Below are positions 30,326-33,013 of a stretch of 64,000 nt of DNA, piece after piece. Within the stretch, counting starts at the first letter, position 1. Each line of letters starts with the position of its first letter. The notes below the pieces were generated by a model. The model saw only the letters and a program-made list of their open reading frames with translations, ran no database searches and had not been told where the DNA came from. Position numbers and translations under genes: made by a program. The stretch is taken from assembly GCF_009659535.1 (NCBI RefSeq), contig NZ_VJZZ01000010.1:124001-188000 (forward strand), written 5' to 3'. The DNA comes from Aggregicoccus sp. 17bor-14 (GTDB lineage Bacteria; Myxococcota; Myxococcia; Myxococcales; Myxococcaceae).

Positions 30326-30886
30326 ATGTTCAATGTCGGCGCGGGCGAAGTCGTCTTCATTCTCGTAGCGGCCCTCATCATCCTCGGGCCACAGCGGCTG
30401 CCGGAGCTGGCGCGAGGCCTCGGCAAGTTCATGCGCGAGTTCCGCCGCCAGACGGATGAAGTGCGCGGCACGCTGGAGCGCGAGTTCTACCGGATGGACC
30501 AGGAGCTCGCGCGGGAGGAGCCCCCGGCCAAGGCTCCGGCTGCGACGCCTCCTGCGCCCGCCGCCTTCCCGCTGCCCGCGCTGCCGCCTGCGCCGCTCGA
30601 GGCGGCCCCCGCGCTCGCCGCGGCCGCCGCCGCTGCTGCGGCTCCCGCGCCGGAGCCCCTGGAGTCCGGGCCCCTGCTGGGCATGGACCGGCCGCCCCTG
30701 GACCCCAGCGTCGCGCGCACCCAGGCGCTCGAGCCGCTCACCCCCGAGGCGGCCGCCGCCGCGCTCGCCGCGCCCGCTTCGGAGAAGGAGCCCGGCGCGG
30801 AGCCCGAGCTGCCGCGGCTGCAGCCGGTGCCCGGCACCATCGCGCGCAACGCGCTCAAGCGCCCGCCCTCCGGCGACGAGATCTGA
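30326..30886 (+). CDS. tatB: Sec-independent protein translocase TatB-like
   Basis: A 186-residue component of the twin-arginine translocase. The short N-terminal membrane helix (GEVVFILVAALIILG), the hinge GPQRLPELARGLGK and the amphipathic helix with FMREFRRQTDEV are the TatA/TatB pattern. The following 110 residues are an Ala/Pro-rich tail with long Ala runs, probably disordered. TatB is favoured over TatA because tatC follows after only six bases and the tail is long. No separate tatA lies in the window. It receives folded Tat substrates together with TatC; the hydrolase at 20.6-21.6 kb has a Tat signal and could be one client. Confidence 0.9.
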   Translation: MFNVGAGEVVFILVAALIILGPQRLPELARGLGKFMREFRRQTDEVRGTLEREFYRMDQELAREEPPAKAPAATPPAPAAFPLPALPPAPLEAAPALAAAAAAAAAPAPEPLESGPLLGMDRPPLDPSVARTQALEPLTPEAAAAALAAPASEKEPGAEPELPRLQPVPGTIARNALKRPPSGDEI

Positions 30887-30892
30887 GCCCCC

Positions 30893-32119
30893 GTGAATCC
30901 TGAATTCCGAATGAGCCTCGCGGGGCACCTGACGGAGCTGCGCTCGCGGCTCATCAAGTGTGTCATCGCCGTCTGCGTGCTGGGCGTCGTGGCCCTCATC
31001 TTCGCCCGCCCCATCTTCGGCGTGCTGATGCGCCCGGTGCTCGCGGCGCTGCCCCCCGAGAACCGCGCCCTCGTCTACACCTCCGGCATCGAGGAGCTGA
31101 ACGTCCTCATGAAGGTGGGCGTGTACTGCGGCGTGTTCCTCACCACGCCGGTCATCCTCTGGCAGCTGTGGGGCTTCGTCTCGCCGGGGCTCTACGTCGA
31201 GGAGCGGCGCTTCGCCGCGCCCTTCGTGCTGCTCGGCTCGCTCGCGTTCCTCATCGGCGGGCTGTTCTGCTACTACGGCGTGCTGCCCTCGATGTTCCAG
31301 TTCCTCCTCAACGAGGAGAGCACCGGCGCGCTCGAGCAGCGCCTGGACACGGCGCGCCTGCACGGGGACGAAGCGCTGCGCTTCCTGCGCATCGGCGAGA
31401 CGGAGCGCGCCGGCCAGCTCGCCAAGAGCACCAGCGCGGCCCTCACCGCCGCGGGGGACGGGCAGCTCGAGGAGCCCGGCCTGGTGCCCACGCTGGACGT
31501 GGAGATGCCCGCGCGCATCGACGCGCTGGGGCGCATGCTGGACGCGGCGAGCGTGGGCTTCGGCCCGCCTGCGCGCGGCGTGCTGCGCCAGGCCACCGAG
31601 CACCACGCCGAGGCCGTGGAGGCCTACGGGCGCGGCCAGCTGGAGGCCGCCGCCAAGGCGCTCGATGCCTCGGCGAGCCTGCTCGCCGGCGCGGCCCCCA
31701 CGCGCAGCGAGGAGATCTCCAGCGTGTGGCGCCTGCAGAAGGAGCTCGCCAGCGGCAAGGCCCGCTACGACCAGCTCAACTGGACGCGACCCATGCTCAC
31801 CATGAACGAGCAGCTCTCGCTCGTGCTGCTGCTCATCCTCGCCTTCGGCGTCATCTTCGAGATGCCCATCGTGATGGCGCTGCTGGGCGTGGTGGGCGTG
31901 GTCAACAGCCGCTTCCTCTTCAAGTACCAGCGCCACGCCTTCGTGGTCTGCCTCATCGCCGCCGCCATCATCACCCCCACCGGCGACGTGGTGAACCTCT
32001 CGCTCATGGGCGGCCCCATGATCCTCTGCTACGAGCTGGGCCTGCTCGCGGTGTGGATGATCGAGCGCAAGCGCGCCAAGCGCCTCGCTGCCTCCGGGGA
32101 CATCACCCCCGCTCCCTGA
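30893..32119 (+). CDS. tatC: TatC with a large periplasmic insertion
   Basis: A 408-residue TatC, compared with about 250 in most bacteria. The N-terminal signal-recognition region is normal: GHLTELRSRL (Glu15), then LWGFVSPGLYVEERR. Helices 1-3 end near residue 138 and helices 4-6 begin at MNEQLSLVLLLILAFGVIFEMP (residue 304). Between them, in the second periplasmic loop, are about 160 extra residues rich in Ala, Glu and Leu that look helical (for example LDTARLHGDEALRFLRIGETERAGQLAKS and AVEAYGRGQLEAAAKALD, TPR-like in spacing). The frame is uninterrupted and codon use matches its surroundings, so this is a true domain insertion. The start is GTG; an ATG six codons later is possible. Confidence 0.95.
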   Translation: MNPEFRMSLAGHLTELRSRLIKCVIAVCVLGVVALIFARPIFGVLMRPVLAALPPENRALVYTSGIEELNVLMKVGVYCGVFLTTPVILWQLWGFVSPGLYVEERRFAAPFVLLGSLAFLIGGLFCYYGVLPSMFQFLLNEESTGALEQRLDTARLHGDEALRFLRIGETERAGQLAKSTSAALTAAGDGQLEEPGLVPTLDVEMPARIDALGRMLDAASVGFGPPARGVLRQATEHHAEAVEAYGRGQLEAAAKALDASASLLAGAAPTRSEEISSVWRLQKELASGKARYDQLNWTRPMLTMNEQLSLVLLLILAFGVIFEMPIVMALLGVVGVVNSRFLFKYQRHAFVVCLIAAAIITPTGDVVNLSLMGGPMILCYELGLLAVWMIERKRAKRLAASGDITPAP

Positions 32120-32224
32120 GTTTCCGGTTTCGACACTGTGCTCTTCCCTTGGAGCCGAAGGCCCGCTAAGCCCTCGGCCCTGCTTTCGCAGTTCCCCTTC
32201 TCCTGACGTGACGAGGTGACGACG

Positions 32225-33013
32225 ATGCGCAAGAGCCTGCTGTTTGCCGCACTGCTGAGCCTGGCGGCGTGCCAGAAGGAGGGCGCCTCCTCCTCTTCCG
32301 GTGGCGCCACCGCCTCCGCCGGTGCGCCCCAGACCGAGGACCAGAAGACCCTCTACGCCATCGGCCTCGTCGAGGCCCGCCGCCTCGGGGTGTTCAACCT
32401 CACCAAGGAGGAGCTCGCCCAGGTGCAGCAGGGCCTCTCCGACGGCGTGACCGGCGCCAAGCCCCAGGTGGAGCTCGAGACCTACGGGCCCAAGATCAAC
32501 CAGCTCGCCCAGGCGCGCATGGGCGCCAAGAGCGAGACCGAGAAGAAGAAGGGCCAGGACTACCTCGCCCAGCACGCGAACGATCAGGGCGCGCAGAAGA
32601 CCGAGAGCGGCGCGCTCTACATCGAGAAGCAGGCGGGCAGCGGCGCGCAGCCGGCCGTGAGCGACACCGTGAAGGTGCACTACAAGGGCACCCTCATCGA
32701 CGGCACCGAGTTCGACAGCTCCTACAAGCGCGGCCAGCCGGCGGAGTTCCCGCTGCAGGCCGTCATCAAGTGCTGGACCGAGGGCGTGGCCAAGATGAAG
32801 GTGGGCGGCAAGGCCCAGCTGGTGTGCCCCTCGGACGTGGCCTACGGCGACCAGGGCCGCCCGCCGCAGATCCCCGGCGGCGCCACGCTGCTCTTCGACG
32901 TGGAGCTGGTGGACATCACCACCCCCAAGGCGGAGCCCACCGGCGCCGCGGGCAAGCCGGGCACCAAGGCCCCCGCCGCCCCGAAGGCCGCTCCCAAGCC
33001 CGCGACGAAGTAG
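32225..33013 (+). CDS. FKBP-type peptidyl-prolyl isomerase lipoprotein
   Basis: A 262-residue envelope folding factor with signal peptide and lipobox LAAC (Cys16). An N-terminal helical dimerisation-type region (about 38-130, like FkpA/Mip) precedes the FKBP domain. That domain has VKVHYKGTLIDGTEFDSSYKRGQPAEF, the VIKCWTEGVAKMKVGGKAQLVCP core and a PGGATLLFDVELVDI end. The Lys/Pro/Ala tail is flexible. The ATG is preferred over the GTG nine bases upstream because GAGG lies eight bases before it. It follows tatC by about 100 bases. Role: proline isomerisation of exported proteins in the periplasm. Confidence 0.93.
   Translation: MRKSLLFAALLSLAACQKEGASSSSGGATASAGAPQTEDQKTLYAIGLVEARRLGVFNLTKEELAQVQQGLSDGVTGAKPQVELETYGPKINQLAQARMGAKSETEKKKGQDYLAQHANDQGAQKTESGALYIEKQAGSGAQPAVSDTVKVHYKGTLIDGTEFDSSYKRGQPAEFPLQAVIKCWTEGVAKMKVGGKAQLVCPSDVAYGDQGRPPQIPGGATLLFDVELVDITTPKAEPTGAAGKPGTKAPAAPKAAPKPATK

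Follow-up and report, generated by a model that had tools for sequence, protein, structure and literature searches.

The tatC gene of Aggregicoccus sp. 17bor-14 encodes a TatC protein that carries an additional, predicted helical domain in its second periplasmic loop. Judged from its sequence, this domain is homologous to the insert known from Myxococcus xanthus TatC. It was gained a single time within the myxobacteria, and its role is probably a structural one.

An inserted domain in the second periplasmic loop of TatC

In the window, i.e. the whole stretch of 64,000 nucleotides that was analysed, tatC is an intact open reading frame on the forward strand (30893-32119), with 408 aa counted from a GTG and 402 aa from the ATG at 30911. 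The latter codon (Met at residue 7) is the likelier start, because M. xanthus TatC begins at the aligned position. A search with PF00902 finds one copy of TatC in the whole 6.9-Mb genome; it scores 201.6 bits (cut-off, 25.1) with the core covered, and hence belongs to this family. The profile aligns in two pieces (profile positions 2-130 and 133-208) that are separated by the extra stretch. The signal-peptide-binding acidic residues, which had been correctly recognized in the first-pass annotation of this DNA as Glu15 (HLTELRSRL) and the FVSPGLYVEER segment, are both present and (nearly) invariant across the alignment. Thus the window protein has the six-TM core and the signal-peptide-binding residues in common with standard TatC (E. 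coli, Aquifex aeolicus 4b4a; PF00902); in the E. coli and A. aeolicus proteins, however, the second periplasmic loop is short and devoid of a domain.

The boundaries of the insert were set by aligning the window TatC to 24 Myxococcota TatCs that lack it. The inserted periplasmic domain comprises 151 aa (residues 144-294; 31322-31774, forward strand) in the loop between TM3 and TM4, where a large extra stretch had indeed been noticed earlier. The interval originally given for it, 31313-31801, covers the insert, but on its 3' side it overruns by about 9 residues into the conserved core, namely the start of TM4 (WTRPMLTM; 31775-31801, forward strand), which lies outside the insert. Since the position of the insert is identical in every recovered Myxococcaceae TatC (90 genomes including that of the window), it does not represent an open frame that arose by chance.

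The AlphaFold2 model of the insert, computed with an alignment of the window sequence and the genome-scan loci, predicts a confident helical domain (pLDDT 85.9) with helices at positions 6-39, 43-58, 74-95, 98-119, 123-138 and 142-170 in segment numbering, in agreement with the initial proposal of a folded, all-helical domain on the periplasmic side; for the full-length TatC model the pLDDT is 78.7. The insert does not correspond to a known Pfam domain, as no family exceeded its cut-off and the weak matches to DUF6118 and Phasin_2 are probably compositional. Mean column conservation amounts to 0.81 in the core vs 0.60 in the insert, and the median dN/dS over 677 pairs, a rough estimate, is about 0.30 for the core and about 0.50 for the insert; as the high GC content of third positions pushes dN/dS upward, we used these values only for comparing core and insert. 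They indicate an insert that is under constraint, yet evolves faster than the core.

Homology to the insert of M. xanthus TatC

A phmmer search against the PDB retrieved two entries of M. xanthus TatC, 9e03 with the whole protein (E 5e-181) and 9e0s with the insert only (E 2e-62). With a profile of 52 inserts, 9e03 and 9e0s were again the only matches (E 3e-77 and 3e-74), the next one having an E of 0.18. The inserts of the window and of M. xanthus are about 62-64% identical, and the insert model superimposes on 9e03_A with Z 24.4 (rmsd 2.8 across 164 residues) and on 9e0s_A with Z 22.8. The possibility that the insert is a relative of another fold was dismissed, as the best unrelated PDB chain reached a Z of 6.4, a value that carries no weight where helical bundles are compared. 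We therefore regard the window insert, on the strength of these alignments, as a homologue of the M. xanthus insert in the same place (TM3-TM4), and the model indicates that the two share their fold. The two proteins agree in loop, length and fold of the insert and in having tatB directly upstream (9e03, 9e0s; Deme et al. 2026, PMC13323110); M. xanthus differs in belonging to another genus of the Myxococcaceae and in the gene 3' of its tatC.

In the work of Deme et al. 2026 (PMC13323110), M. xanthus TatC was picked on account of its insert. The isolated insert (9e0s) formed a homotrimer in the crystal, with a sulphate sitting on the three-fold axis, and the insert is ordered within the TatBC complex (9e03; produced in E. 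coli, without cargo), where it adds TatC-TatC contacts. The insert trimer sits over the centre of (TatBC)3 and obstructs it, from which the authors argue that cargo does not pass through the centre and that substrates cross peripherally. Likewise, a 2026 review (PMC13186574) points to the contact between the M. xanthus loops when arguing that TatBC has no central pore. Since the structure of the M. xanthus insert is published, the finding in the window is not new, either as a kind of insert or as a structure; what is added here is the distribution of the insert, with a single gain and four families.

The same structures bear on the earlier suggestion that the insert may act as an exit gate or as a receiving site for folded cargo. 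Its location on the trans side is the sole point in favour, whereas the centre is obstructed by the trimer and the published structural evidence points to peripheral transport (PMC13323110, PMC13186574), so that we hold such a function to be extremely improbable. Also very unlikely is a trimeric lid under regulation, in which a periplasmic ligand or an anion bound at the three-fold axis would tune the stability of the core complex or the recruitment of TatA, an idea based on the sulphate on that axis in the M. xanthus crystal (PMC13323110). If true, a ligand-regulated lid would be a myxobacterial control over Tat export.

As in the window TatC, a big extra segment in a periplasmic loop is described for TatC of Nitratifractor salsuginis (PMC13323110). 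It is located in a different loop, is unrelated to the insert of the window and, according to the authors, is disordered in the cryo-EM map.

Distribution and origin of the insert

We surveyed 195 Myxococcota genomes (families coded f1-f31). Every one of the 90 Myxococcaceae genomes with a recovered tatC has the insert (two of them split at contig ends and two truncated at the start), and it also occurs in the families f2, f3 and f6. In six Myxococcaceae genomes no TatC match came up, but as the scoring there covered just 9 candidates, they do not constitute evidence of absence. Among the surveyed genomes the insert is absent from five other families of the order (f4, f5, f7, f8, f9) and from f10, which belongs to the same class; f5 presumably corresponds to Anaeromyxobacter. 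TatC of the other Myxococcota classes sampled in the survey is present but lacks this insert.

The most distant inserts, those of f6, match a profile of the remaining inserts with E 4e-5 and 5e-4 (best shuffled control, 0.11), and hhalign gives 42.5 for f6 against the others, with column-shuffled controls of at most 18.5; the comparison was weaker when the profile held fewer families. These scores argue for homology of the f6 inserts to the rest. In a tree of the TatC core, from which the insert columns had been removed, all insert-bearing rows (24/24) form one clade (support 98/92) that requires one change, which implies one gain, and no loss was seen in about 97 genomes across the four families. 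Taken together, the insert was gained once, in the ancestor of the Myxococcaceae and the three related families, in line with the lineage-specific insertion that had been suspected. A loss in the Anaeromyxobacter-type families is not needed to explain the pattern, as the tree fits one gain.

For a wider scan we searched 84,980 prokaryote species with two short motifs from the junction between insert and TM4. This yielded 55 loci, all from myxobacteria or deltaproteobacterial bins, with one labelled Comamonas; the last of the 55 (L179) is an f10 TatC without the insert that was caught via the junction motif. Hence the insert, which might in principle have turned up in most bacterial TatCs, was not found outside the myxobacteria among these species, although a highly divergent relative could escape a scan with two motifs. 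The locus labelled Comamonas (L143; Comamonas sp. KCTC 72670, BNCN01000001.1) carries a tatC whose insert is 63% identical and which is preceded by an MFS gene and tatB, as in myxobacteria; from this identity and the same upstream genes, the record is probably a mislabelled myxobacterium.

A different extension was observed in f17, a family of another Myxococcota order. In all four genomes (G074-G077; five TatC copies) an insert of about 135 residues occupies the first periplasmic loop, between TM1 and TM2 (loci L112, L108, L124 and L183-L187); G075 has two tatC copies (L185 and L187), both with this insert. It is unrelated to the insert of the window, looks alpha/beta and is conserved within the group. 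Searches of it against Pfam, the PDB and CheY gave no significant match, and a reading as a receiver-like domain is thus unsupported.

Genes adjacent to tatC

Just upstream of tatC lies tatB (30326-30886, forward strand; PF02416), with Glu8, the residue that marks TatB, in the motif MFNVGAGE. We detected tatB beside tatC in 75 of the 82 distinct loci that bear the insert, and 6 of the other 7 are cut at a contig end. Two more PF02416 genes, probably of the tatA type, are found elsewhere in the genome.

On the 3' side, tatC is followed by a gene for an FKBP-type prolyl isomerase lipoprotein (32216-33013, forward strand; PF00254, PF01346; lipobox LAAC), which the first-pass annotation had put forward as a partner of the domain. 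By tblastn, this gene was found downstream of tatC at no other locus, and 79 of these loci bear the insert and extend 1 kb or more beyond tatC (0/79); as it adjoins tatC in the genome of the window only, we ruled it out as the TatC partner. In an M. xanthus strain the downstream gene is TrkA-like (named by eye from its translation). The neighbourhood also bears on the notion that the insert serves myxobacteria as the docking site of a periplasmic factor, such as a chaperone or an envelope or peptidoglycan protein. A conserved, surface-exposed domain on the trans side with a predicted fold would suit such a function, but the candidate FKBP gene is not kept beside tatC and no other downstream gene was established as conserved, and we consider docking rather unlikely.

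A probable clamp on the Tat core complex

We propose that the insert probably forms, as a trimer in the periplasm, a constitutive clamp on (TatBC)3 that reinforces the complex structurally. The window tatC is an orthologue of M. xanthus tatC, with an extra helical domain in the second periplasmic loop of its product. Outside the membrane, three inserts, one per TatC, would pack against one another at the three-fold axis; they would thereby hold together the TatC subunits of (TatBC)3 in its resting state and close the complex on the periplasmic side. Transport of cargo would take place at its edge, like in other bacteria, and the insert would therefore reinforce the structure and not act as a gate. 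The present analysis shows the insertion and its homology for the window protein and predicts the fold, while the trimer, its position and the added TatC-TatC contacts were demonstrated by others in M. xanthus. At 62-64% insert identity, trimerization of the window TatC inserts seems a reasonable expectation, and stabilization may be what selection has favoured in them.

The clamp is supported by the sequence and model matches to 9e03 and 9e0s, by the homotrimer, extra contacts and obstructed centre of the M. xanthus structure, and by the single gain and the retention across the clade, with no loss seen. Against it speak that most bacteria form a Tat core complex without such a domain, and that the insert evolves faster than the core. 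The faster, less constrained change of the insert would also suit a near-neutral decoration that was fixed after its gain and has been retained as well-folding and harmless, and so would the unrelated, independent loop inserts in TatC elsewhere (N. salsuginis, PMC13323110; loop 1 in the other Myxococcota order). The absence of any loss in about 97 genomes of four families and the ordered trimer of the solved M. xanthus structure (PMC13323110) speak against mere decoration, which we judge to be quite unlikely.

From the published M. xanthus structure it has already been argued that Tat has no central pore. To this our analysis adds an evolutionary frame, with one gain, about 97 genomes that retain the insert and close sister lineages without it. 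This frame offers natural pairs, e.g. the insert-bearing TatC of Myxococcus and an insert-less TatC of the Anaeromyxobacter type, with which the role of the insert as a lid may be tested.
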